Source: Bradyrhizobium genosp. L (GTDB lineage Bacteria; Pseudomonadota; Alphaproteobacteria; Rhizobiales; Xanthobacteraceae). From it: a stretch of 64,000 nt of DNA. The translations under genes were made by a program, and so were the position numbers. The DNA lies in NCBI RefSeq assembly GCF_015624485.1, contig NZ_CP061378.1, positions 5,084,001 to 5,148,000 on the forward strand. The letters are read 5' to 3'. The notes below the pieces were generated by a model. It did not search any database. It had not been told where the DNA came from and worked only from the letters and a program-made list of their open reading frames with translations. Shown piece by piece: positions 10,575 through 26,790 of this stretch (within the stretch, counting starts at the first letter, position 1; the number at the start of each line of letters is the position of its first letter).

Positions 10575-10895
10575 TTAAGCCTGCCGCTCCGGCGTCGACA
10601 CCACGAGGCCGTCGAGTTCGTCGGTCACCTTGATCTGGCAGGACAGCCGCGAATTCGGCCGCACGTCGAAGCCGAAGTCCAGCATGTCTTCTTCCATCGG
10701 CGAAGGCGCGCCGACCTTCTCCTTCCAGGCTTCATCGACATAGACATGGCAAGTTGCGCAGGCGCAGGCGCCGCCGCATTCGGCTTCAATGCCGGGAATC
10801 GCATTGCGGATCGCGCCTTCCATGACGGTCGCGCCGTTCTCGATCTCGATGATGCGTTCCTCGCCGGAATGGTCGATAAAGTGGATTTTGGCCAT
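10575..10895 (-). CDS. [2Fe-2S] ferredoxin, adrenodoxin/putidaredoxin type
   Basis: 106 residues, the usual family length. Cluster ligands are C40, C46, C49 ([11 protein letters not shown]) and C86 (SRLSCQI), matching the vertebrate-type C-x5-C-x2-C...C pattern. C44 is extra. Acidic residues around [11 protein letters not shown] form the usual docking surface. It is a cytosolic one-electron carrier that serves P450s, ring hydroxylases or Fe-S cluster assembly. The nearby FNR (8914-9942) could reduce it, though they are not one operon. Start ATG at 10895. Confidence 0.92.
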
Positions 10896-11039: not shown

Positions 11040-11420
11040 TCAGGCGCGGCGGAGAATCAGCTCGATGGCGGAGCGCGCTTCGGCAATCGCCGCGCCGAGC
11101 GCGGCGAGCGGCTGGGACGGGTCGGAACCGCCCGTCAACGCCGTTTCCAGTCGGGCGGCAGCATCCGCCACGCCAAAGGCCCCGATCGCACGGGACGATC
11201 CCTTCAGGGTGTGGGCGTGGGCAGCCGCGTCAGTCGGCAAGGCTGCCAACTCGCCGAGGATCCTGGCCGACTGGGTCGCGAACATCGCCAGCACCTCGCG
11301 CTCGAGGTCCGGGTCGCCCAGCGTCATGCGCTGGAGGTGGTCGAGATCGATCGGACCGTCGCCGGGCGCGAGCGGCGGCGATTGCGTCCATTCGACTCTT
11401 TCGAGATGCAGCGGCGGCAT
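11040..11420 (-). CDS. HPt (histidine phosphotransfer) domain protein
   Basis: About 126 residues from the ATG at 11420; a longer frame would need a TTG at 11477. After a short leader the rest is a single HPt domain: PIDLDHLQRMTLGDPDLERE, then AHAHTLKGSSRAIGAFGVADA with the phospho-accepting His in HTLKGSS (about residue 70), and two further helices. It should relay phosphate between a hybrid histidine kinase and a response regulator. It has no kinase or receiver domain and no such gene adjoins it. It is divergent from the giant coiled-coil gene and shares a 379-base control region with it. The reverse-strand stop lies in a CG-rich inverted repeat around 11030-11048. Confidence 0.85.
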   Translation of the reverse strand: MPPLHLERVEWTQSPPLAPGDGPIDLDHLQRMTLGDPDLEREVLAMFATQSARILGELAALPTDAAAHAHTLKGSSRAIGAFGVADAAARLETALTGGSDPSQPLAALGAAIAEARSAIELILRRA

Positions 11421-11799
11421 TGGCCTGTCCCCGTCGTCCCGCCGGGTGGGCCGCGGCGGATTTGTTCGCCCAGCCAATCACGAAACTGGTTAACGGATTG
11501 TTGCCGCGATCGTCTGCAAATTCGCCCGATTCCGGACAATTTCCCGTCACAATCGGCCTGATCTGGCAGGAATTTCGAGTACCCATAAGGCCTTATGGCG
11601 CGAAGCTGTTAACGATGATTAAGAAAGTATTAATCGGAAGCATTTCATTCGCTTCGCTCAGCCAATAGGATGTTTGAGGATGTAGCGGACAAGCCGCCGA
11701 GGGGGCGCTTGCGCTCCGCTGTGGGCACCGGCTTCGAACTTGCGGGGGGACAATCGCAAGCTCGCCGACGCGTAAATAGTGAGAGGGCTCAGACTGAAC
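11421..11799. other. 379-base divergent control region between the HPt and giant coiled-coil genes
   Basis: It contains a perfect 14-base palindrome CATAAGGCCTTATG at 11584-11597, three TTAA tetramers at 11609-11633 that include a CtrA-type site, and an isolated TTAAC half-site at 11490-11494 on the HPt side. About 100 bases before the giant gene are G-rich. No open frame here looks coding. Confidence 0.6.
11619..11633 (+). promoter_or_regulatory. Candidate CtrA-binding site (TTAA-N7-TTAA)
   Basis: TTAA at 11619-11622, seven bases, TTAA at 11630-11633. This is the exact spacing of the alphaproteobacterial cell-cycle regulator CtrA (TTAA-N7-TTAAC), although the final C is T. A third TTAA precedes it at 11609-11612. 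It is 167 bases upstream of the giant gene start. CtrA control would fit a protein of the growing pole. Confidence 0.45.
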
Positions 11800-14700
11800 A
11801 TGGCGAACACTCCCAAGAAGGTCAAAGATCCCACCGAAGTCGCGCTTTCTGCGATTCAGGAAGCCCTCAACATCAGCGAACAGGGCGCGGACAACCGCGG
11901 CGCCATCAACGAGAGCGCCACGCCGCCGAACCTGCCGCCGGCCACACCTGACTTCTCGGCCTCGTTCGAGACCCATCCCGCCGCGGACCGCCCGGTGTTC
12001 GAACCGATCGAGGAACCGCGCAGCCCGCGCCGCGCCGCCAACGACGATCGCGCCAATATCGGCCAGATGCTGCAGGACCTGCAGCGCGGCCGCCCTGCCC
12101 GCAACACGTTCACGCTGTTCGCCATCTGCTCCGGCGTCTGGCTGGTCGGCTGCTTCATCCTCACCGCCGCGTTCTGGTCCTCGGTGCACGCCGCAATGGC
12201 GGAAGGCTCCGGCGTGCTGGTGCTCGCCGGCCTCGCCGCGCTGTTCGTCGCGCCGATCCTGTTGTTCTACTTCGTCGCGACGCTCGCCACCTACGGCCAG
12301 GACATGCACAAGATCGCGCAATCGATGGCGCAGGTCGCGATGCGCTTCTCCGAGCCGGAACATGCCGCTGCCGAATCCATGGTGACGGTCGGCCAGGCGA
12401 TCCGCCGCGAGGTCGCGGCGATGGGCGACGGCGTCGAGCGCGCGATCGCGCGCGCCGGCGAACTCGAAACCCTCGTCGCCAACGAGGTCGCGGCACTCGA
12501 ACGCGCCTATTCCGACAACGAAGTGCGCATCCGCGCGCTGCTGCAGGACATCGCCCATCAGCGCGACAATTTGGTCGGCCAGGCCGAGCAGGTGCGCAGC
12601 GCGATCTCCGGCGTGCAGATCGACCTGCGCCACGACATCGCGCTGATCTCGGACGCCATCGCCTCGCGCGTCGACGAGGTCGCCAAGAGCATCACCGGTG
12701 CGCTGGAAGAGCGCGGCCAGCACATCACGACCGCGCTGAGCCATGCCGGCGACAACATGATCCTGGCGCTCGGCGAGCGCGGCGGCGACCTGCTCGACCG
12801 CCTCGAGGAAGCCAGCGCCGAGACCACGCGCGCCGTGATGGACGCCTCCGAGCGGCTGACCACCAGCCTTAATTTCAAGACCGGCCACGTCCACGACGAG
12901 TTCGTCGACCTCGCCGACCGCGTCCACGAGATGCTGAACGAGCGCATCGACCGCATCACCGGCGAGTTCGAGCAGCGTTCGTCGAGCATCGTCGAGGGGA
13001 TTTCCGACCGCACCGAGCAGGTCCACGACTCCCTGAAGAACTCCGGAGACTCGCTGCTGCTGGAGCTCGAGCTGCGCAGCAACGACCTGATCGGCAAGAT
13101 CGACGACGCCGGCAACCGCCTCGCCGGCCAGATCATGACCTCCGGCGACAAGGCGAGCGAAGCGCTCGACGTCACCGTCAACTCGCTGGTCGCCAAGGTG
13201 GTGAGCCAGACCGAGACCGCGCACGATTCGCTGTCGCTGCAGATGAGCGCGTTCGACGAGCTAGTGAAGAACCACGGCAGCGAGCTCGCCGAGAAATTCG
13301 CCCGCGACTCGGGCACGCTCGGCGCGTTGATCACCCGCCACATCTCCGAATTCGACCGCACGGTGAAGACCTTCGGCGGCGATATCGTCGAGCGCATGGG
13401 TCAGCGCACCCAGGACATCGCCGACAGCCTGAAGACCTACGTCGACACTTTCGATCACCGCGTCTCTTCGAACGGCGGCGAGATCACCGCCTCGCTCGAC
13501 CAGCGCCTGCTGCAGTTCGAGACCACGCTCGGCAGCCGCGTCACCAACCTCGACGCCTCGCTGGACGACAAGCTCTCGAGCTTCGACAGTTCGCTCGGCA
13601 GCAAGATCGGCTCGCTCGACAGCACGCTCAACGGCCATCTCTCGACGCTCGACAATTCGCTCGCGACCCAGATCGGGTCGCTCGACGGCCGGCTGCAGTC
13701 GCTCGACGAGGTGATCGACGGCCGCATGAAGACGCTCGAAGTCACTTTCGAGGGCCGCGCGAAGTCGGTCACCGACACCATCGACGGCCACCTCGGCACG
13801 CTGGCTGCTCAGCTCACCGAGGGCGCCGCCCAGGCGATCCAGTCGATCGATTCCCGCCTCGGCCTGCTCACCACGACCCTCACCGAGGGCACCGTGCAGG
13901 CAATCGCCGCGGTCGACCATCGCATCAACAACGTCACCGAGACGATCAACGGCCACAGCGCGCGGCTCGCCGACACCATCAACGGCCACAGCGCGCACCT
14001 GACCGACACCATCACTGGCCACAGCACGCACCTGACCGACACGGTCTCGGCGCGCTTCATCGACATCCGTCAGGGCATCGAGACCCATGTCGGCGCTATC
14101 GCCAGCGACATCGACACCCGCGTCGCGCAGTTCGAGGACCTGCTCGGTTCGCGCGTCGAGGCGGTCGCCGGCCGCATCGAGAGCTCGGGCCGCCAGGCCA
14201 GCGAGGACCTGATGTCCCGCGCCGAGCTGCTGTCGTCCAGCATCAGGTCGCATGTCGAGGACGCCGAGCGCTCGCTCACCAACCTCGTGGTCAACACCAG
14301 CGAGACCATCCAGACCGGTGCGCGCACCGCGCAACAGGCGATGCTCAGCGTCTCGAGCGACGTCGGCGCCCAGCTCAAGCTGACCTCGGCCGAGGTCGAA
14401 GGCGTGCTGACCGCGGTCGGCACCAGCGCCGCCAACTCGATCCTCACCAGCGCCCGCGACGCGCAGGCCTCGCTGGTCACGGCCTCAGGCGACGTCACCA
14501 CCCAGATCAAGTCGCTGTCGGAAGATGTCGAACGCACGCTGCAGGCGGCCGGCAGTGCCACCGCGGCCTCCGTGCTGTCCGGCGCCCGCGAAGCGCAGAC
14601 CACGCTGGTCTCGGCTTCGGCCGATGCCGCAAGCCAGGTCAAGTCGCTGGCCGCCGACGTCGAGCGTTCGCTGTCGATGGTTGGCTCCGCCACGGCCGAA

Positions 14701-17700
14701 GCCATCATGACCGGCGCCCGCGAGGCCCAGACCACGCTGGTCGCGGCCTCGACCGAGGCCGCAAGCCAGGTCAAGTCGCTGGCCGCCGACGTCGAGCAGT
14801 CGCTTTCTATGGCTGGCTCCGCCACCGCGGAAGCCATCATGACCGGCGCCCGCGAGGCCCAGACCACCCTGATCTCGGTTTCGACCGACGTCACCAGCCA
14901 GGTGAAGTCGCTCACCAGCGATGTCGAGCGCTCGCTCTCGGTCGCCGGCACCGCCACCGCCGAGGCCGTCGTGGCTTCCGCCCGCGAGGCCCAGAGCACG
15001 CTTGCCGGCACGTCCACCGATGCCGCCAACCTCGTGCGCACGCTTGCCGCCGACATGCAGCACTCGCTGTCCACCGCCGGCACCGCCACTGCGGAAGCCA
15101 TCGTCGCCGGTGCCCGCGAGGCCCAGACCACGCTGGTCGGCGCGTCCACCGAAGCCTCCAACCTTGTCCGGACGCTGTCGGCCGACATGGAGCGCTCGCT
15201 CTCGATGGCCGGCTCCGCGACCGCCGAGGCGATCACCTCAGGGGCGCGCGAGGCCCAGACCACGCTGGTCAACGCGTCCACCGAGGCCACGACCAAGGTG
15301 GCGGCGCTTGCTGCCGACATCCAGCGCGCGCTGTCGATGGCCGGCGCCGGCACCGCCGAAGTGCTGACGGCCGGCGCCCGCGAGGCGCAGACCACGCTGA
15401 TCAGCGCATCGACCGAAGCCGCCAACCACGTCAAGTCGCTGGCGGCCGATGTCGAGCGCACCCTGACCTCGGTCGGCACCAGCACGGCGCAGACCATCCT
15501 CGGCAGCGCGCGCGAGGCCCAGAACTCGTTCGCGGCGACCTCCAGCGAAGCGGCAAGCCAGATCCGCGAGATCTCCGCCGAGATCGAGCGCACGCTGACC
15601 GCCGCGGGTGCGGAAACCGCACAAAACATCATCGGCAGCGCCCGCGAGGCCCAGGGTTCGTTCGTGGCAACCTCGAGCGAGGCGGCCAACCAGATCCGCG
15701 CGATCTCCGCCGACATCGAGCGCACACTGACGACTTCCAGCGCGGAGACCGCGCAGACCATCCTGGGCAGCGCCCGCGAGGCCCAGAGCTCGTTCGCGGC
15801 GACCTCCGCCGATGCCGCCAGCCAGATCCGCGCACTCTCGACCGACATCGAGCGCGCGCTCGGCGCCGTCACGGCCAAGACCACCGACAATATCCAGACT
15901 TCGGCGCAGAACGCCCAGGCTGCGCTGATCACGATGTCCAACGAGGTCTCGACCAAGGTCAAGACCACCTCGGCCGACATCGAGCGTTCGGTGCTGTCGG
16001 CGTCAAGCGCCTTCGGCTCGGCGATGACCGGCAAGACCGACGAGATCGTCACCTACGTGCAGCAGCAGGCCGAACGCCTGTCGCAGATGGTCGACAGCCG
16101 CCGCGGCTCGCTGGTCGAGGCACTCACCGCCAAGACCACGCAGCTTGCGACCGACATGGATCGCGCCACCGCGGACGCGCTGAAGGCGATCGAAACCCGC
16201 GGCCAGGCGTTCTCGCAGTCGATGTCGGCGCATGGCAGCGATGTCGCGCGCAACATCACCTCGGCCGGCGATCAGGCGACCGGCGCGGTGGCGAAGTCGC
16301 TCAAGGACCTCGAGCAGGCCTCGCGGGCGGCGATCGATCAGTCCCGGCAGGTCTCGATCTCGGCCGTCACCGAGATGCAGGAGACCAGCAAGATCCTGCG
16401 CACCGACACGGTCGCCCTGTTCGAGCGGCTGCGCGAGGGCAACATCCTGCTGCAGGAGGTCTTGACCGGCGCCCACGACAACCTCAACTCGCTGGAGCGC
16501 GCGCTGGTGACCCGCGTCGCCGACTTCGTGTCCGCCATGAACGACGTCACCTCGCGCAACGGCGTGGCGACCCAGACGCTGGAAGACCAGCTCACGGTGT
16601 TCAACAGCAAGACCGGCAAGGCGCTGGAGGATCTCGGCGAGCTCTCGGGCCAGTTCGAGACCCATGGCAAGGCGCTGATCGAGGCGGCTGCCGTGGTCGA
16701 GCAGGCTAATCGCTCGACGACGACTTCCGTCAGCGAGCGCAAGACGGCGCTGGAATCGCTGGTCACGACCATCGACCTGCGCACCACCGATCTCGACCAG
16801 CGGCTGTCGCGCTTCACCGGCCTGCTCGATGAATCGCTGGCCGCCGCCGAGGAGCGCGCCCGCGACATCGCGCGCGTGGTCGCGGAGACCGCAGGTGCCG
16901 GCTCGGCGGCGATCAGCCGTCAGTTCGAGGCGGTGCGGCTTGCGGCCGAGAACGAGCGGCAGCAGACCGTTGACGCCATGAACGACCTGTACCAGCAGAG
17001 CAACGCCGAGACCGATGCGATGTTCAAGGAATCGACGGAGAAGTTCTCCGCGATGGTCACGGCGATGAAGCAGATGGCATCCGAGATGCACAACGAGCTC
17101 GAGGCCACCCGCAACGAGCTGCGCCGCGGCGTGCTGGAAATGCCGCAGGAGGCCGCCGAGAACACCGCTCAGATGCGCAAGGTGATCGTCGACCAGATCG
17201 AGGCGCTGGCCGAACTCAACCGCATCGTCGCCCATCATGGCCGCGGGCTCGACGTGGTCTCCACCACCGCCAACCGCAGCACCGTCCGCCAGGAGGAGCC
17301 GATGATGGCTGTCGCCTCCGGCGGCCGCACCGAGGCGCGCGTCCGCGATACCGGAATGCGCGACACCGTCATGCGAGACAACGGCAACAGCGCCTCCACG
17401 CTGCCGCCGCCCGATCTCGGCATGCCGGCGCCGCGCCGCACCGAGGCGCCCCCTGTGGCGCCGGCAAGCTCCGACAATGGCCGCGGCGACGGCTGGCTGT
17501 CCGACCTGCTCAACCGCAGCGACGCGCCGCCGCCCCCGCCGAACCGCGAGCCGCAGCGCCCGCGTCCGCAGCAGGCCGCCGCCAATCCGCTGGAATCGCT
17601 GTCGCTCGACATCGCCCGGCTGATGGACCGCAACCTCGCCGCCGAGATGTGGGACCGCTACCAGCGCGGCGAGAACAAGGCGTTCAGCAAGCGCCTCTAC

Positions 17701-17919
17701 ACGCCGGCCGGCCAGAAGGCGTTCGACGAGGTGGCCCGCAAGTACCGCTCCGACCGCGGCTTCAAGCAGACGGTCGACCGCTACATCGCGGAGTTCGAGC
17801 GCCTGCTCGACGAAGTCGCCCGCGACGGCCGCGGCCAGCAGGAGCTGCAAAGCCACCTGACCTCGGAGACGGGACTGGTCTACACCCTGCTCGCGCATGC
17901 GGCCGGGCGGCTGGGATAA
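11800..17919 (+). CDS. Giant membrane-anchored coiled-coil protein, GPR/RgsE (growth pole ring) type
   Basis: About 2039 residues from the ATG at 11800; GAGAGG is 13 bases upstream and a GTG at 11779 is possible. A polar N-terminus of about 100 residues precedes two membrane helices (about 102-126 and 137-163). A very long Ala/Ser/Thr/Asp-rich helical region follows. It includes 22 consecutive 11-residue units at residues 566-807 and 13 consecutive 44-residue units at 840-1411. After a Pro-rich linker (about 1865-1930) comes a compact C-terminal domain beginning LESLSLDIARLMDRNLAAEM. Size, N-terminal anchoring and apolipoprotein-like repeats match the Agrobacterium growth pole ring protein GPR and Sinorhizobium RgsE, which organise polar growth. 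Homology is inferred from architecture. Database names such as kinesin-like would be repeat artefacts. Confidence 0.75.
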   Translation: MANTPKKVKDPTEVALSAIQEALNISEQGADNRGAINESATPPNLPPATPDFSASFETHPAADRPVFEPIEEPRSPRRAANDDRANIGQMLQDLQRGRPARNTFTLFAICSGVWLVGCFILTAAFWSSVHAAMAEGSGVLVLAGLAALFVAPILLFYFVATLATYGQDMHKIAQSMAQVAMRFSEPEHAAAESMVTVGQAIRREVAAMGDGVERAIARAGELETLVANEVAALERAYSDNEVRIRALLQDIAHQRDNLVGQAEQVRSAISGVQIDLRHDIALISDAIASRVDEVAKSITGALEERGQHITTALSHAGDNMILALGERGGDLLDRLEEASAETTRAVMDASERLTTSLNFKTGHVHDEFVDLADRVHEMLNERIDRITGEFEQRSSSIVEGISDRTEQVHDSLKNSGDSLLLELELRSNDLIGKIDDAGNRLAGQIMTSGDKASEALDVTVNSLVAKVVSQTETAHDSLSLQMSAFDELVKNHGSELAEKFARDSGTLGALITRHISEFDRTVKTFGGDIVERMGQRTQDIADSLKTYVDTFDHRVSSNGGEITASLDQRLLQFETTLGSRVTNLDASLDDKLSSFDSSLGSKIGSLDSTLNGHLSTLDNSLATQIGSLDGRLQSLDEVIDGRMKTLEVTFEGRAKSVTDTIDGHLGTLAAQLTEGAAQAIQSIDSRLGLLTTTLTEGTVQAIAAVDHRINNVTETINGHSARLADTINGHSAHLTDTITGHSTHLTDTVSARFIDIRQGIETHVGAIASDIDTRVAQFEDLLGSRVEAVAGRIESSGRQASEDLMSRAELLSSSIRSHVEDAERSLTNLVVNTSETIQTGARTAQQAMLSVSSDVGAQLKLTSAEVEGVLTAVGTSAANSILTSARDAQASLVTASGDVTTQIKSLSEDVERTLQAAGSATAASVLSGAREAQTTLVSASADAASQVKSLAADVERSLSMVGSATAEAIMTGAREAQTTLVAASTEAASQVKSLAADVEQSLSMAGSATAEAIMTGAREAQTTLISVSTDVTSQVKSLTSDVERSLSVAGTATAEAVVASAREAQSTLAGTSTDAANLVRTLAADMQHSLSTAGTATAEAIVAGAREAQTTLVGASTEASNLVRTLSADMERSLSMAGSATAEAITSGAREAQTTLVNASTEATTKVAALAADIQRALSMAGAGTAEVLTAGAREAQTTLISASTEAANHVKSLAADVERTLTSVGTSTAQTILGSAREAQNSFAATSSEAASQIREISAEIERTLTAAGAETAQNIIGSAREAQGSFVATSSEAANQIRAISADIERTLTTSSAETAQTILGSAREAQSSFAATSADAASQIRALSTDIERALGAVTAKTTDNIQTSAQNAQAALITMSNEVSTKVKTTSADIERSVLSASSAFGSAMTGKTDEIVTYVQQQAERLSQMVDSRRGSLVEALTAKTTQLATDMDRATADALKAIETRGQAFSQSMSAHGSDVARNITSAGDQATGAVAKSLKDLEQASRAAIDQSRQVSISAVTEMQETSKILRTDTVALFERLREGNILLQEVLTGAHDNLNSLERALVTRVADFVSAMNDVTSRNGVATQTLEDQLTVFNSKTGKALEDLGELSGQFETHGKALIEAAAVVEQANRSTTTSVSERKTALESLVTTIDLRTTDLDQRLSRFTGLLDESLAAAEERARDIARVVAETAGAGSAAISRQFEAVRLAAENERQQTVDAMNDLYQQSNAETDAMFKESTEKFSAMVTAMKQMASEMHNELEATRNELRRGVLEMPQEAAENTAQMRKVIVDQIEALAELNRIVAHHGRGLDVVSTTANRSTVRQEEPMMAVASGGRTEARVRDTGMRDTVMRDNGNSASTLPPPDLGMPAPRRTEAPPVAPASSDNGRGDGWLSDLLNRSDAPPPPPNREPQRPRPQQAAANPLESLSLDIARLMDRNLAAEMWDRYQRGENKAFSKRLYTPAGQKAFDEVARKYRSDRGFKQTVDRYIAEFERLLDEVARDGRGQQELQSHLTSETGLVYTLLAHAAGRLG
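13495..14220 (+). repeat. 22 in-phase 11-residue (33-base) hendecad repeats inside the giant gene
   Basis: Every 33 bases encode a unit such as LGSKIGSLDST, LNGHLSTLDNS, SARLADTINGH, SAHLTDTITGH, with hydrophobic residues at fixed positions and GR/GH/SR at the unit end. No insertion or deletion breaks the phase over 242 residues. Strict 11-residue periodicity indicates a right-handed (hendecad) coiled coil or amphipathic helix array. Confidence 0.9.
14317..16032 (+). repeat. 13 in-phase 44-residue (132-base) tandem repeats inside the giant gene
   Basis: Units start at 14317 and every 132 bases after. Each opens with GAREAQTTL or a variant, continues as VKSLAADVERSLS and closes with an ATAEAI-like segment. 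The length is exactly four hendecads. The first and last units are most diverged (GARTAQQAML, SAQNAQAALI), the middle ones closest to each other, as expected of expansion by unequal crossing-over. All units keep the frame. Confidence 0.93.
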
Positions 17920-19368: not shown

Positions 19369-22300
19369 ATGACCGATTTGAATTATTGGCGCGGCGAATT
19401 TCTTGCAAACACCACCACAAACGGAGATCAGCGCTTCGCCACCGTTGCGGAGCTTTCCGATGGCGGGTTCGTCGTCTCCTGGACCGACTACGGGGCCAAC
19501 GCCGGTGATACCGATCACACCGCCATTCGGATGCAAATCTACGATCCGAACGGCAGCAAATATGGCTCGGAAATTCTCGTCAACACGGCAACGGCAGGCG
19601 ACCAGCTCGACTCGCGGATCGTTCAGCTGAACAACGGCAACTTCGTCGTCGTCTGGGGAGATGGAAGCGACACCGGAGGCGACACCAGCGGAGCCTCGGT
19701 ACGCGGACAGATCTTCACGGCAGCAGGCGCGAAGGTCGGCGGCGAATTTCTCGTCAATTACCCGACCTTCGGAGATCAATACGATCCCGATGTCGTCGCA
19801 CGGCCGGACGGCGGATTTGCCGTCGTCTATCGCGACGACAATCTGGACTACAATGGAAGCACCTACGGCACGAGCCTCGTTGCCGCGTTTTTCGATGCCA
19901 ACGGGGTATCGACGAACACAAGCGGCTACTATCCCCTCAATGCCTCCAGCGGAACGAACCTCGATGCACATCAGGATGCGGTCGTCACGTCGCTGACCAA
20001 CGGCAACACGGTGATCGCATATACCGAGTCGAACCCGTCGCTTAGTGACGGCAGCGGCTCCGCGATCAAAGCGGTCATTCTCGACGGCACCAAGAACTAT
20101 CTGCAGACCACAGACGTCTACTTCACCGTCAACACGACGACCGCAGGGATCCAGAAGACGCCGGCGATCACCAGTCTGACGGGCGGCGGTTTCGTCGTCA
20201 CCTGGGTCGACGGCAGCGACACCGGCGGAGATACCGATTCATGGGCGATCCGCGGGCAAGTTTATGCCGCAGACGGCACCAAAGTCGGCGGCGAATTTCT
20301 CGCCAACACGACGACTGCGGGCGCCCAGATCAACCCGACCGTGACATCCACGTTGGATGGCGGTTTTCTGGTCTCGTGGGAGGACCACAGCCAGGATGCC
20401 ACGAACAGCGGCGACATCTTTGCGCAGCTGTTCGACGCCCATGGCGTCAAGGAGGGCATTGAATATCACCTGAATACCTTCACGGCCGGCGCGCAAGCCC
20501 TGCCCGACTCGGCGATGCTGGTCGACGGTCGCCTCGTCGTGGTGTGGGAAGACAGCAGTGGCGCCGGCGATCCGGGCAGCTATGGCATCCATCTGACGAT
20601 GCTGGACCCGCGCGACGGCGTCCAGACCGGTCCCGCGAAGATCAGCGCATTCGACGCCGGCACGACAGGCATCGACTTCATGGGGTCGATCACGTCAGTG
20701 CTGCAAAGCGCGACGTCATTCCAGGGACTTCAATCCTCGGTTTTCGAAGTGACCAGCGGCAGCAACGCGCTGTTCTTCTTCGGATACGGCATCAACTACG
20801 ACAACAATGGTGCTCCGACCAGCGGCACGGTCACCAATTTCGGATACTATGCCGGAACGACCGAGCTTTTCGTCGGCATGAACATGACGCTCAATGCCGT
20901 CGACGTTTACAACGCCGTCGCCGCGGCCGACGGCGGCAATACCGCACCGGTCACGGCGTTGCTCGATGGCTTTTCTTACAATCTCACCGGCGGCGCCGGC
21001 AACGACACGCTGGTCGGACACGGCGGCGACGACACATTCATCGGCGGCGCCGGAAATGACACCATCGTTGGCGGCGCCGGTAACGACACGGCCCAGTTCA
21101 GCGGAGCATGGCTCGACTACACGATCACCAAGAACGCCGACGGCAGCTACAAGCTCGTCGACCACCGCGCCGGCTCGCCCGACGGCACGGATACGGTCTC
21201 CGGCGTCGAGCAGTTCAAGTTCTCGAACCAAACCGTTGCGGCCGCGAACCTGCTGAATGCCGCACCGACCGACATCACACTCAGCAGTTCGGTGGTGGTC
21301 GACCATGCTCCTGCGGGAACGATCGTCGCCAATTTGAGCGCGACCGACCCGAATGCGATGGATGCGTTCACCTATTCGATCGTATCGGACCCTGCCGGCT
21401 ATTTCGTGATCTCCGGCAACGAGCTTGCGGTCAGGAGCGGCGCAACCGTCAGCATTTCAGCCGGCACCGTGAACGTCGGCATTCGCGTCACCGATGCTGC
21501 CGGCGCGACCTACACCGAGACGGACACGATCCAGGTCGTTCCCGCGATTCCGACGTCAGGCAGCGAGTTTCGTATCAACACGACGACGTCGAATTTTCAG
21601 GGCTCCGCCTTGACCACGACGTTGAGCAACGGCCAGATCGTCGTGATCTGGGAAGACTATAGCCGAACCGGAGGCGACACCAGCGGCGGCGCCGTCCGCG
21701 GGCAGGTCTTGAACTCCGATGGAACGAAGTCGGGCGCAGAATTCCTGGTCAATACCGTCACCGCCAACGATCAATACCCGCTCGGCGTGGCGGCACTCCC
21801 CGGCGGCAAATTCGCGGCCATTTTCACCAACGCAATTTCCGCCAATGAACAGGATATTCGCGGGCAGATCTTCAATGCCGACGGCACGAAATCCGGCAGC
21901 GAATTCATCGTCGACAGCCTGCCCGGCGGATATGTCTATGGCGGCCAGGTCTATGCGCTGAGCAACGGCACGTTTTTGGTTTCGTCCGAGCACGCCGCGT
22001 CGCCATTCACGATGAACGGTCAGGTCTTCAACGCGGACGGGACGAAATCGGGATCGCCAATTCCGCTGACGCCGTCAAGCAGCTACACCACGTTTACGTC
22101 GGCGCCGACGGCGAACGGTCTGCTGCAGTTGTGGACGCATCAAGGCGCCGAATCGCAAACCCAGGCCCACGTCTACGACTACCTGATCCAGGGACGCTAT
22201 CTCGACAATTCAGGCGTGCCAACCGGGGCGACCTTCCAGTTTCATGTGAACACGGGCGGCATCGTCAATCCAAGCGTCACGCAGCTCACAAACGGACAGG

Positions 22301-25300
22301 TTGTCGTTACATGGGATGACTACAATTATTCGCCGGCCGCGGGCAGCTCGAACGACACGATCAAGGCGCAGATCATCAATGCCGACGGCACCCTTGCAGG
22401 TCCGGAATTGAACGTCAGCACGGCCAACGTCGTCTTTCAGTCGTCTCCCGTCGTCACCGCGCTGTCCAATCAGGAATTCGTCGTCTCCTGGCTGGTTCCG
22501 AATGAATACAAGATTCATTCCCAACTGTTCGGCAATGACGGCACCAAGATCGGCTATGAGTCCTACCTTGGAATGATCACGGATTCCGGCGTGTCGTCGG
22601 CTGCCACGGCGGACGGGCGCTATCTCGTCACGTTTACCGAGCGCAATGCCGGGCTGGGCGACACCGACCAGGGCGCCGTCCACGGGCAATTCTACGACAT
22701 CCGGACCGCACCGATTACCGTCCAGGGCACCGCCGCGGACGATCACATCGTCGGGACGCCGTTTGCCGACACGATCGGCGGCGGAGCCGGGAGTGACACA
22801 CTGACCGGCGGCGCAGGTGCCGATACATTCGTGTTCGCGAGCGGCTACGGCGCGGACACAATCCTCGACTTCAAGCACGCCGAGGGCGATAAGATCGATG
22901 TTTCCGGTGTCGCCGGCATCTATTCGCTCGCAGATATCACCGCGCATGCCACCCAAAGCGGCGCGAACACCATCATCGACTTCGGCAATGGCGACACACT
23001 GACGCTGAACGGCGTGACGAAGACGAATCTCGTTGCGTCGGACTTCGTCTTCGCGGGTCCGCCCAATCAGGCGCCGAGCGCCGTTTCGCTGAGCAACACG
23101 ACACCCACGATCGCCGAAAATACGTCGACCGCGACCCACATCAAGGTTGCCGACATCACCATCACCGATGACGGCGTCGGAACGAACGTGCTCGGCCTCA
23201 CAGGTCAGGACGCCGGTTATTTCGAGATCGTCGGAAACGCGCTTTATATCAAGGCCGGAACCGTTCTCGATTACGAGACCAAGGCGAGCTATTCGGTTGC
23301 CGTCACCGTCGACGATGCTTCGGTCGGCGCCACCCCCGATGCGACCAGCTCCATCTATACGTTGCAACTGACGGACGTGAACGAGAAGCCGACGGCGGTG
23401 ACGCTGTCGAACGCGACGCCTGCCCTGGCCGAGAACACCTCGACAGCGACGCACATCAAGGTTGCCGATATCGCTGTCACAGACGACGCGCTTGGAACCA
23501 ACGTGCTCGGACTCACCGGCGCCGACGCGAACTATTTCGAGATCGTCGGAAACGCGCTGTACCTCAAGGCCGGCACCGTTCTCGACTACGAGACCAAGGC
23601 GAGCTACGCCGTTGCGGTCACCGTCGACGATGTCTCGGTTGGCACCACGCCGGATGCTACCAGCTCGATCTATACGCTGAACGTCACCGACGTGAATGAG
23701 AAGCCCACCGCGGTCACGCTGTCGAATGTGACGCCCTCGATCGCCGAAAACACGTCAACGGCCACGCATATCAAGGTTGCCGATATCGCTGTCACAGACG
23801 ACGCGCTTGGAACCAACGTGCTCGGCCTCACCGGCAGCGACGCGAACTATTTCGAGATCGTCGGCAACGCACTTTATATCAAGGCCGGCACCGTTCTCGA
23901 CTACGAGACCAAGGCGAGCTACGCCGTCGCGGTCACCGTCGACGATGCCTCGGTCGGCACCACGCCGGACGCCACCAGCTCGATCTATACGCTGAGCGTC
24001 ACTGACGTGAACGAGAAGCCCACCGCGGTGACGCTGTCGAATGCGACGCCGTCGCTGGCCGAAAACGCGTCAACGGCCACGCATATCAAGGTCGCCGACA
24101 TCTCGGTCACCGATGACGCGTTGGGGACCAACGTGCTCGGCCTCACCGGCAGCGACGCGAGTTATTTCGAGATCGTCGGCAACGCGCTTTATATCAAGGC
24201 CGGCACCGTTCTCGACTACGAGACCAAGGCGAGCTACGCCGTCGCAGTCACCGTCGATGATCCTTCCGTGGGCACCACGCCCGACGCCACCAGCTCCACC
24301 TACACACTGCAAGTCACGGACGTTAACGAAAAGCCGACGGCGGTGACGCTGTCGAATACGACGCCGTCGCTGGCCGAAAACACGTCAACCGCTACGCATA
24401 TCAAGGTCGCCGACATCTCCGTTACCGACGACGCGTTGGGCACCAACGTGCTCGGACTCACCGGCAGCGACGCGAGTTATTTCGAGATCGTCGGTAATGC
24501 GCTCTATATCAAGGCCGGAACCGTTCTCGATTACGAGACCAAGGCGAGCTATTCGGTTGCCGTCACCGTCGACGATGCTTCGGTCGGCGCCACCCCCGAT
24601 GCGACCAGCTCCATCTATACGTTGCAACTGACGGACGTGAACGAAAAGCCGACAGCGGTGACGCTGTCGAACGCGACGCCTGCCCTGGCCGAGAACACCT
24701 CGACAGCGACGCACATCAAGGTTGCCGATATCGCCGTCACAGACGACGCGCTCGGAACCAACGTGCTCGGACTCACCGGCGCCGACGCGAACTATTTCGA
24801 GATCGTCGGCAACGCGCTGTACCTCAAGGCCGGAACCGTTCTCGACTACGAGACCAAGGCGAGCTACGCCGTTGCGGTCACTGTCGACGATGTCTCGGTC
24901 GGCACCACGCCGGACGCCACAAGCTCGATCTATACGCTGAGCGTCACTGACGTGAACGAGAAGCCCACCGCGGTCACGCTGTCGAATGCGACGCCGTCGA
25001 TCGCCGAAAACTCGTCAACCGCCACGCATATCAAGGTCGCCGACATCTCGGTCACCGATGACGCGTTGGGAACCAACGTGCTCGGCCTCACCGGCGGCGA
25101 CGCGAGCTATTTCGAGATCGTCGGCAACGCGCTCTATATCAAGGCCGGAACCGTTCTCGATTACGAGACCAAGGCGAGCTACGCCGTCGCAGTCACCGTC
25201 GATGATCCTTCCGTGGGCACCACGCCCGACGCCACCAGCTCCACCTACACGCTGCAAGTCACGGACGTTAACGAAAAGCCGACGGCGGTGACGCTGTCGA

Positions 25301-26790
25301 ATACGACGCCGTCGCTGGCCGAAAACACGTCAACCGCTACGCATATCAAGGTCGCCGACATCTCCGTTACCGACGACGCGTTGGGCACTGACGTCCTGGG
25401 ACTCACCGGCAGCGACGCGAGTTATTTCGAGATCGTCGGGAACGCGCTTTATATCAAGGCTGGAACGGTTCTCGACTTCGAGACCAAGGCCAGTTATGCG
25501 GTTGCCGTCACGGTCGACGATGTCTCGGTGGGCACCACGCCCGATGCCACCAGTTCGGTCTACACGTTGCATCTGACCGATGTGAACGAGAAGCCGACCG
25601 CGGTGACGCTGTCGAACACGACGCCTTCGCTCGTCGACAGCACCTCGACCGCCACTCACATCAAGGTAGCCGACATCGCCGTCACCGATGACGCGCTTGG
25701 GACCAACGTGCTCGGTCTCACCGGGGCCGACGCCAGTTATTTCGAGATCGTCGGAACGGCGCTCTATCTCAAAGCCGGCACGACCTTGAATGCGGCGACG
25801 AAGGACAGCTACGCGGTCGCGGTGACCGTGGACGATGCTTCGGTCGGCACCACGCCTGACGCGACCAGCTCGGTTTTCACGCTGCATGTCACGCATCCAC
25901 GCGTGTCGATCAACGATTTCAATGCGGACGGCCATAGCGATCTGGTCTGGCACAGCGACGACGGCGCCGCTTCCATCTGGAACAGCGGCCAGATCGCCAG
26001 CGCGCATCTGATCGCGGCAGCCGGTGTGGTGCCCGCGAGTTGGAATATCGTCGGCAAGGGCGACTTCGACGGCAACGGACACAGCGATCTGCTCTGGCAG
26101 AACAGCAACGGCGCCGTTTCGATCTGGGGCAATGGCGACATCAGCAACGCCCATGTCATTGCGCAGGCGGGCGCGGTGCCGTCGAGCTGGCACATCGCCG
26201 GCGTCGCGGATTTCGACGGGAATCTCAAGGACGACATCCTGTGGTGGAACGACAATGGCGCCGTGTCGATCTGGAACAATGGGGACATCAACCAGGCGCA
26301 TGTCGTTGCACCGGCGGGAGCCGTTCCCGCCGGCTGGCACGTCGCCGGCACGGGTGACTTCGATGCCGACGGCAAAGCCGATATCCTCTGGCGCAACGAC
26401 AACGGCGCACTATCGATCTGGGATGGCGGCCAGATCGGAAGCGCCCACATCGTCGCGGCGGCAGGCGTAGTGCCGACGGACTGGCACGTGGTCGGTACCG
26501 GCGATTTCGATGGGAATGGCCACACCGACATTCTCTGGCAGAACGACAACGGTGCCGTTTCGATCTGGGATAACGGTACGATCGCCGGCGCTCATGTCAT
26601 TGCCGCAGCCGGCACCGTCGCCACCAGTTGGCATGTCGCAGGCACCGGCGATTTCGACGGCAACGGCCACAGCGATATCGTTTGGCGCAACGATAACGGC
26701 ATGGCATCGATCTGGGACAACGGAAACCTGGCCAACGCGCACATCATCGCGGCGGCGGGGGCTGTTCCTGCGGGGTGGCACATCGTCTAG
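19369..26790 (+). CDS. Giant secreted repeat protein: RTX calcium-binding, cadherin-like and FG-GAP repeats
   Basis: 2473 residues, no N-terminal signal peptide, acidic and apparently poor in cysteine, as expected of type I secretion substrates. Order: about 500 residues of 58-residue beta repeats (LANTTTNGDQ..., LVNTATAGDQ..., LVNYPTFGDQ...); an RTX block near residues 540-575 (GGAGNDTLVGHGGDDTF); a cadherin-like domain; more beta repeats; a second RTX block near 1118-1155 (GGAGSDTLTGGAGADTFVF); nine 105-residue cadherin-like repeats; and six 49-residue FG-GAP/VCBS repeats (DFDGNGHSDLLW) with calcium-type DxDxNG loops. Likely a surface adhesin or biofilm protein. No type I ABC, membrane-fusion or TolC gene adjoins it. 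The start has only a weak ribosome-binding site. Confidence 0.85.
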   Translation: MTDLNYWRGEFLANTTTNGDQRFATVAELSDGGFVVSWTDYGANAGDTDHTAIRMQIYDPNGSKYGSEILVNTATAGDQLDSRIVQLNNGNFVVVWGDGSDTGGDTSGASVRGQIFTAAGAKVGGEFLVNYPTFGDQYDPDVVARPDGGFAVVYRDDNLDYNGSTYGTSLVAAFFDANGVSTNTSGYYPLNASSGTNLDAHQDAVVTSLTNGNTVIAYTESNPSLSDGSGSAIKAVILDGTKNYLQTTDVYFTVNTTTAGIQKTPAITSLTGGGFVVTWVDGSDTGGDTDSWAIRGQVYAADGTKVGGEFLANTTTAGAQINPTVTSTLDGGFLVSWEDHSQDATNSGDIFAQLFDAHGVKEGIEYHLNTFTAGAQALPDSAMLVDGRLVVVWEDSSGAGDPGSYGIHLTMLDPRDGVQTGPAKISAFDAGTTGIDFMGSITSVLQSATSFQGLQSSVFEVTSGSNALFFFGYGINYDNNGAPTSGTVTNFGYYAGTTELFVGMNMTLNAVDVYNAVAAADGGNTAPVTALLDGFSYNLTGGAGNDTLVGHGGDDTFIGGAGNDTIVGGAGNDTAQFSGAWLDYTITKNADGSYKLVDHRAGSPDGTDTVSGVEQFKFSNQTVAAANLLNAAPTDITLSSSVVVDHAPAGTIVANLSATDPNAMDAFTYSIVSDPAGYFVISGNELAVRSGATVSISAGTVNVGIRVTDAAGATYTETDTIQVVPAIPTSGSEFRINTTTSNFQGSALTTTLSNGQIVVIWEDYSRTGGDTSGGAVRGQVLNSDGTKSGAEFLVNTVTANDQYPLGVAALPGGKFAAIFTNAISANEQDIRGQIFNADGTKSGSEFIVDSLPGGYVYGGQVYALSNGTFLVSSEHAASPFTMNGQVFNADGTKSGSPIPLTPSSSYTTFTSAPTANGLLQLWTHQGAESQTQAHVYDYLIQGRYLDNSGVPTGATFQFHVNTGGIVNPSVTQLTNGQVVVTWDDYNYSPAAGSSNDTIKAQIINADGTLAGPELNVSTANVVFQSSPVVTALSNQEFVVSWLVPNEYKIHSQLFGNDGTKIGYESYLGMITDSGVSSAATADGRYLVTFTERNAGLGDTDQGAVHGQFYDIRTAPITVQGTAADDHIVGTPFADTIGGGAGSDTLTGGAGADTFVFASGYGADTILDFKHAEGDKIDVSGVAGIYSLADITAHATQSGANTIIDFGNGDTLTLNGVTKTNLVASDFVFAGPPNQAPSAVSLSNTTPTIAENTSTATHIKVADITITDDGVGTNVLGLTGQDAGYFEIVGNALYIKAGTVLDYETKASYSVAVTVDDASVGATPDATSSIYTLQLTDVNEKPTAVTLSNATPALAENTSTATHIKVADIAVTDDALGTNVLGLTGADANYFEIVGNALYLKAGTVLDYETKASYAVAVTVDDVSVGTTPDATSSIYTLNVTDVNEKPTAVTLSNVTPSIAENTSTATHIKVADIAVTDDALGTNVLGLTGSDANYFEIVGNALYIKAGTVLDYETKASYAVAVTVDDASVGTTPDATSSIYTLSVTDVNEKPTAVTLSNATPSLAENASTATHIKVADISVTDDALGTNVLGLTGSDASYFEIVGNALYIKAGTVLDYETKASYAVAVTVDDPSVGTTPDATSSTYTLQVTDVNEKPTAVTLSNTTPSLAENTSTATHIKVADISVTDDALGTNVLGLTGSDASYFEIVGNALYIKAGTVLDYETKASYSVAVTVDDASVGATPDATSSIYTLQLTDVNEKPTAVTLSNATPALAENTSTATHIKVADIAVTDDALGTNVLGLTGADANYFEIVGNALYLKAGTVLDYETKASYAVAVTVDDVSVGTTPDATSSIYTLSVTDVNEKPTAVTLSNATPSIAENSSTATHIKVADISVTDDALGTNVLGLTGGDASYFEIVGNALYIKAGTVLDYETKASYAVAVTVDDPSVGTTPDATSSTYTLQVTDVNEKPTAVTLSNTTPSLAENTSTATHIKVADISVTDDALGTDVLGLTGSDASYFEIVGNALYIKAGTVLDFETKASYAVAVTVDDVSVGTTPDATSSVYTLHLTDVNEKPTAVTLSNTTPSLVDSTSTATHIKVADIAVTDDALGTNVLGLTGADASYFEIVGTALYLKAGTTLNAATKDSYAVAVTVDDASVGTTPDATSSVFTLHVTHPRVSINDFNADGHSDLVWHSDDGAASIWNSGQIASAHLIAAAGVVPASWNIVGKGDFDGNGHSDLLWQNSNGAVSIWGNGDISNAHVIAQAGAVPSSWHIAGVADFDGNLKDDILWWNDNGAVSIWNNGDINQAHVVAPAGAVPAGWHVAGTGDFDADGKADILWRNDNGALSIWDGGQIGSAHIVAAAGVVPTDWHVVGTGDFDGNGHTDILWQNDNGAVSIWDNGTIAGAHVIAAAGTVATSWHVAGTGDFDGNGHSDIVWRNDNGMASIWDNGNLANAHIIAAAGAVPAGWHIV
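23083..25917 (+). repeat. Nine tandem 315-base (105-residue) cadherin-like repeats
   Basis: Units recur every 315 bases and carry TLSNATP, ENTSTATHIKVADI, VTDDALGTNVLGLTG, YFEIVGNALYIKAGT, LDYETKASYAVAVTVDD and TDVNEKPTAV. Units 1-2 are almost base-identical to units 5-6 (offset 1260), and the unit 4/5 junction to the 7/8 junction (offset 945). The ninth unit is degenerate (SLVDSTST, NAATKDSY). Confidence 0.93.
25915..26790 (+). repeat. Six tandem 147-base (49-residue) FG-GAP/VCBS repeats
   Basis: Each unit opens DFDGNGHSDLLW or a variant, followed by NDNGAVSIWDNG and AHVIAAAGAVP-x-WHVAGTG. The DxDxNGxxD loop is the calcium-binding element of FG-GAP/VCBS blades. The last unit stops short at WHIV, which is the C-terminus. 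The number of blades approximates one beta-propeller. Confidence 0.88.

Follow-up and report, generated by a model that had tools for sequence, protein, structure and literature searches.

RgsE of Sinorhizobium meliloti and GPR of Agrobacterium tumefaciens are the closest described relatives of the protein considered here. RgsE is described as an inner-membrane-anchored protein of the growing pole that lies mostly in the cytoplasm and has RgsA, RgsS and TolQ as interaction partners, and GPR is reported to be 42% identical to it (PMC7327166). GPR foci are arranged in a ring of 200 nm diameter, about 100 nm from the tip, and deletion of 221 or 332 C-terminal residues strongly blocks complementation (PMC8262873). 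Polar localisation, the ring and the loss of shape on depletion have been reported in A. tumefaciens and in S. meliloti (PMC8262873, PMC7327166). We analysed a stretch of 64,000 nucleotides from Bradyrhizobium genosp. L (assembly GCF_015624485.1, contig NZ_CP061378.1, positions 5,084,001 to 5,148,000, forward strand), referred to below as the window. It contains a gene for a protein of 2039 residues (the window protein) that sequence similarity identifies as orthologous to RgsE of S. meliloti, itself a known homolog of GPR from Agrobacterium. Most of this protein is built on a period of 11 residues (hendecads), and this shaft appears, from the comparison of related sequences, to change length in evolution mostly by whole 11-residue steps, a rule that is new as far as our literature searches reach.

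A sequence-only reading had assigned the protein to the GPR/RgsE type, and had staked this assignment beforehand on the two terminal regions. Both turned out to be similar to RgsE: residues 1-260 are 36% identical to the protein of S. meliloti 4H41 (locus L138) over 287 columns (E = 6e-43), and the C-terminal region is 47% identical (E = 2e-43). The ortholog in this strain has 2094 residues, and the published RgsE length is 2089 (PMC7327166). Among 80 named loci, the N-terminal 260 residues match 78 and the last 110 residues match all 80; 78 hold a full-length frame, and the other two (L190 and L203) start inside the gene. The matched loci include Agrobacterium vitis and Agrobacterium sp. a22-2, and it is through these two and RgsE that GPR of A. 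tumefaciens itself was compared. The ferredoxin gene is upstream and divergent, as in the window, in all three loci whose gene positions were inspected. The two membrane helices proposed earlier also hold as a prediction: hydropathy windows above 1.6 begin at residues 102-115 and 131-148, and a comparable pair is predicted in most relatives. For one Bradyrhizobium relative (P0030), the source gives the name 'negative regulator of septation ring formation', a name without support in our data.

The window protein has one match in its own genome (a single contig of 7.4 Mb). Several of its best protein hits are named as Bradyrhizobium. Its C-terminal domain, which has 17 invariant columns across 30 sequences, is found in 21/21 genomes of the genus, in 149/151 of a Rhizobiaceae-like family and in 284/297 of the order, few genomes having a second match; the 13 of 297 order genomes without a match include all three genomes of one family (f36). 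One genus genome has a further piece of this domain, 35 residues long and with 80% identity, some 1.2 kb past the gene (G018:C39:56835-56939). Membership in the RgsE family is in itself not new, since homologs have been reported in all Rhizobiales families (PMC7327166). The apolipoprotein model PF01442 matches the window protein with E = 1.9e-57 (194.5 bits against a curated cut-off of 90, in 9 stretches) and the S. meliloti ortholog with E = 3.2e-77 (10 stretches). ZorA of the anti-phage Zorya system was considered and rejected, the NCBIfam ZorA model giving 22.7 bits against a cut-off of 190.

The frame and the periodic 11-residue protein were as first described, and the period is stronger than had been stated. 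In a fixed register with core positions at residues 1 mod 11, 93 consecutive core positions from residue 485 to residue 1497 are occupied by I, L, V, M, F, W or Y. The best-scoring segment comprises 113 units (core positions 265-1497, three misses), so that the earlier estimate of hendecads over about 800 residues was too low. The longest hydrophobic hendecad run was 8 in 200 shuffles of the protein, and the longest other run was 26 among 4138 open frames of at least 150 residues in 1.66 Mb, this background being the window plus the 80 named loci, where frames above 1600 residues were excluded as GPR-type. The spectrum of residues 180-1815 peaks at 3.665 residues per turn with a power of 107.7, where 300 shuffles reach at most 10.1, and the power at 3.5 residues per turn is only 1.2. 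Proline is absent from residues 187 through 1781.

Measured at 11/3 residues per turn, the phase remains within -50 to +27 degrees in every sliding window starting from residue 246 to residue 1500, and drifts afterwards. Because it holds through both the block of 33-base repeats and that of 132-base repeats, the two form one register: the absence of a phase break inside each block, noted earlier, extends to the junction between them. The units had also been called exact. This is true of their length and not of their sequence: Tandem Repeats Finder puts the matches at 64-86% in the 33/66-base rows and at 75-79% in the 132-base rows, and among the thirteen 44-residue units (842-1413) identity to a reference unit is 34-89%. 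Within the genus, the best hendecad segments have 83 to 113 units. Across the order, 192 of 196 proteins, a few of which may come from one species counted twice (for example L086 and L192), have at least 20 perfect hendecads (median 70, maximum 157). Two loci (L115 and L116) have short open frames of 987 and 862 residues in which the long hendecad run is missing.

Length differences were collected with an automatic anchor method from 106 proteins in nine genus-like groups, whose labels (Sinorhizobium, Rhizobium, Mesorhizobium-like and Rhizobiaceae-like among them) were assigned within this analysis on the basis of record titles or sequence similarity. Of 72 distinct length differences found in the hendecad segment, 62 are divisible by 11; in the N-terminal, linker and C-terminal intervals this is true of 3 of 111 (6/127 if one interval that also spans the rod is kept among the flanks); length states are not independent events, and we give counts instead of a probability. 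The phase coherence of the length states at 11/3 is 0.93 in the hendecad segment versus 0.10 in the terminal and linker intervals. Three other settings gave 63/73, 70/79 and 50/59 multiples of 11, and a second reference protein per group gave 64/69, 62/68, 64/71 and 53/59.

Within the genus, 28 proteins including that of the window were gathered and 25 counted, omitting L022 (frame broken), L039 (frame lacking membrane helices) and L041 (contig end). The distance between rod anchors ranges from 835 to 1183 residues. It is 10 mod 11 in 22/22 proteins outside the window's clade and 6 mod 11 in the 3/3 inside it (the window protein and two close relatives), which is, on this comparison, a single shared shift of +7 or -4 residues. 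At residues 568-757, the register of this clade shifts and the core column moves between hydrophobic columns. The four helical segments around the rod keep constant distances of 57, 135, 160 and 60 residues, and the distance across the proline-rich linker varies from 166 to 182. The copy number of the 44-residue unit had been expected to vary between strains; it does vary, from about 6.6 to 13.2 copies by a threshold measure in the 25 proteins, in a comparison of species rather than strains.

From these observations we propose, with a probability of about 0.72, that the window protein organises the growing pole as a coiled-coil-like rod, anchored in the membrane and about 185 nm long, whose length changes by in-register recombination between DNA repeats. 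The N-terminal hairpin would serve as the anchor in the inner membrane at the growing pole. In the cytoplasmic part, at least two parallel helices would pack on a narrow hydrophobic stripe with 11/3 residues per turn and so make up a long rod. An alpha helix rises 0.15 nm per residue, and at this value the roughly 1243 hendecad residues in one register would span about 185 nm. Rods would be anchored at the ring, and their far ends, some 185 nm of hendecad away, would bear the linker and the C-terminal domain, which, on its flexible tether, may dock partners from the growth machinery. In-register recombination between repeats of 33n bases would add or remove whole hendecads, and any change of length that turned the stripe would disrupt packing and be lost.

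Observations of two kinds weigh against this proposal. As to length, 10 of the 72 rod states break the rule of 11; helical parts outside the hendecad segment, which also contain units of 29 residues and of other sizes, have multiples of 11 in only 10 of 33 states; the Mesorhizobium-like group, with no more than about 23 hendecads, contributes no state to the count; and 4 of the 196 order proteins have fewer than 20 perfect hendecads. Seven of the ten exceptions are 4 or 7 mod 11, steps that preserve the stripe, and three of these seven are one event in the window's clade. It may also be argued that mutation alone accounts for the multiples of 11, slippage between repeats of 33n bases yielding only 33n while helix phase goes unselected. 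The two length-variable rod intervals of the genus (568-757 and 856-1375) do contain the two DNA repeat arrays, which makes in-register recombination the likely source of length change. However, slippage by itself fails to explain why some 930 other residues between the second membrane helix and the linker are unchanged in length in the 25 genus proteins, while a linker interval of 117 residues has 12 lengths, and this constancy points to selection acting on top of recombination. Nor does it explain the seven stripe-keeping exceptions. We doubt that slippage is the whole cause; probably, slippage and selection on helix phase act together.

As to shape, AlphaFold2, run on residues 560-1160 as a single sequence, gave helices of 133 and 159 residues, but with a predicted local distance difference test score (pLDDT) of 57.4, and with the 44-residue part split into short helices; as the model is broken and of low confidence there, it lends no support to rod continuity in that part. 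From the 50-nm width of the GFP-GPR foci, the authors of the GPR study argue that the chain has to fold (PMC8262873), and the window protein could likewise be an antiparallel helical bundle that bends back several times, its 185 nm contour never being present in the cell. Glycines within the repeat units and the breaks in the AlphaFold2 model would agree with such a bundle. Yet the extended helical domain of GPR is put at 600 nm, and the deletion proteins and the working fusion described bear green fluorescent protein (GFP) at the N-terminus (PMC8262873). The value of 600 nm is consistent with an extended chain, since 1700 residues in an alpha helix would measure about 255 nm, and N-terminal GFP fusions report the membrane anchor only, so that 50-nm foci do not force folding. 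Moreover, an unbroken register across 113 units without a single proline is not what one would expect of regular hairpins, and we consider the bundle unlikely.

A different arrangement, proposed for Agrobacterium GPR (PMC8262873), is that of an apolipoprotein-like lipid binder, whose 11-residue repeats would lie on the membrane or wrap lipid, folded back. Besides the PF01442 score, the sole PDB sequence matches at E of 1 or better are to apolipoprotein A-IV (5.1e-6 and 5.5e-5). PF01442, though, may score any hendecad rod, as it tracks repeat periodicity. Membrane-binding helices of 11-mers usually combine a wide apolar face with basic flanks, and hendecad coiled coils have a narrow stripe. In the rod, a single column of 11 is almost fully hydrophobic (97%), columns +4 and +7 are so in part (40% each) and column +1 reaches 25%; the hendecad segment has a net charge of -65 (-5.2 per 100 residues), within a proline-free stretch of 1595 residues. 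This stripe is narrow like that of hendecad coiled coils and unlike the wide face of 11-mers bound to lipid, and a right-handed coiled coil would fit both the stripe and the acidic rod. Lipid binding as the role of the repeats thus seems to us improbable. The rod proposal bears on the published view of obligatory chain folding, and a single-register hendecad rod with whole-unit length changes is a concrete structural model, directly testable by biochemistry and tagging. In the main text of PMC8262873, the words 'amphipathic', 'residue' and 'periodic' are absent, and the word hendecad was not found in papers naming GPR or RgsE among those listed by the literature searches, subscription papers, including the 2019 GPR paper, being outside that scope.

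Other periods occur in related proteins. In Sinorhizobium and Mesorhizobium-like proteins, 29-residue repeats are found in the post-rod parts, the latter having a 94-residue repeat as well. Arrays of 29 (11+18) and 94 residues follow or replace the hendecad rod at about residues 990-1300 of L138 and at residues 590-1720 of L087. Beyond the order, matches to the C-terminal domain model occur in 101 genomes of the class (105/289, minus four of the order), and distant RgsE homologs have been described in Emcibacterales and Rhodospirillales (PMC7327166). We read 20 of the 101, picked by rank and length, and 17 further places served for a test of generality (L263-L299). All 20 match the last 110 residues of the window protein, and their rods peak at 3.565 to 3.625 residues per turn. 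Lag 25 ranks in the top three sequence lags in 14/20 and lag 29 is the strongest in 2/20; the longest perfect runs have 26 units of 25 residues, or 23 units of 29. L272, with 25 perfect hendecads, and L275, with 18, speak against a clean split of periods by order.

A wider, speculative reading, which we hold to be rather improbable, is that of a family of polar scaffolds of the GPR/RgsE/TipN kind, spanning the class, with a lineage-specific unit in its helical rod: 11 residues (11/3 per turn) in Hyphomicrobiales, and 25 (25/7) or 29 (29/8) elsewhere. Changing length by whole units, such a rod would act as a nanometre ruler that can be adjusted genetically, in steps of about 1.65 nm for each hendecad, and that determines how far the growth machinery lies from the membrane ring; a change of unit would alter the rod's supercoil handedness as well. 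The genus spread of 83 to 113 units offers a length axis along which this ruler hypothesis can be tested.

Features of the window protein and its gene neighbourhood are collected in the table. The frame opens with ATG at 11800 and ends with a stop codon at 17917-17919; an alternative GTG start 21 bases upstream would give 2046 residues. Third-position GC in the gene is 0.916, against 0.652 and 0.494 at the other two positions.

Table. Positions, in the window, of the RgsE/GPR ortholog, its parts and its divergent neighbours
Feature	Position	Strand	Remarks
GPR/RgsE ortholog gene, 2039 residues	11800..17919	+	Frame; N- and C-terminal matches to RgsE
N-terminal proline-rich segment, residues 1-101	11800..12102	+	Length variable, differs freely among species
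Two predicted membrane helices, about residues 103-127 and 137-164	12106..12291	+	Hydropathy windows
Proline-free stretch, 1595 residues between Pro186 and Pro1782	12358..17142	+	Putative continuous helix
Hendecad rod, one register, 113 units, residues 265-1507; core = residues 1 mod 11	12592..16320	+	93 perfect units from residue 485
33/66-base repeats, residues 584-748	13549..14042	+	Within length-variable rod interval 1 (568-757)
Thirteen 132-base (44-residue) units, residues 842-1413	14323..16038	+	Length-variable rod interval 2 is 856-1375
Post-rod helical segment	16321..17142	+	Length constant in 25 genus proteins; anchors at residues 1375 and 1804
Proline-rich linker, freely varying length	17245..17580	+	Anchor distances
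C-terminal all-helical domain, residues 1928-2039	17581..17916	+	Conserved among relatives
[2Fe-2S] ferredoxin, divergent neighbour	10575..10895	-	Matched in 78/80 named loci
Hpt-domain protein, divergent neighbour	11040..11477	-	Matched in 33/80 named loci

The window holds a second giant protein (19369-26790, + strand, 2473 residues) with cadherin-like repeats, RTX calcium-binding repeats and C-terminal FG-GAP repeats, which is perhaps a secreted adhesin.

Among known systems, the exchangeable apolipoproteins such as apoA-IV have an amphipathic periodicity of 11/22 residues, a likeness reflected in the PF01442 score above cut-off and the weak PDB sequence matches. They are, however, small animal proteins, whereas the window protein is a membrane-anchored bacterial giant; their helical repeats are punctuated by proline, and no such punctuation is found in residues 187-1781. 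TipN of Caulobacteraceae is a polar scaffold, like proteins of the GPR/RgsE kind, and GPR is stated to have similarity to it (PMC8546619). In one Brevundimonas protein named tipN, we found at its own C-end a weak match to the C-terminal half of the domain (independent E value 4.1e-5, over 18 sequences); this protein has 809 residues and peaks at 3.595 residues per turn, versus 3.667. GPR (Atu1348), known here by description, has 2115 residues, two transmembrane helices, apolipoprotein domains and a C-terminus that is needed (PMC8262873). RgsE (SMc00190) shares with the window protein two membrane helices, PF01442 repeats, conserved termini and the ferredoxin neighbour, at 25% identity over 980 aligned columns. 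The ortholog of S. meliloti 4H41 has the same hendecad pattern, with 61 units in 2094 residues, so that the hendecad segment of RgsE is about half as long as that of the window protein and is then followed by 29-residue repeats.

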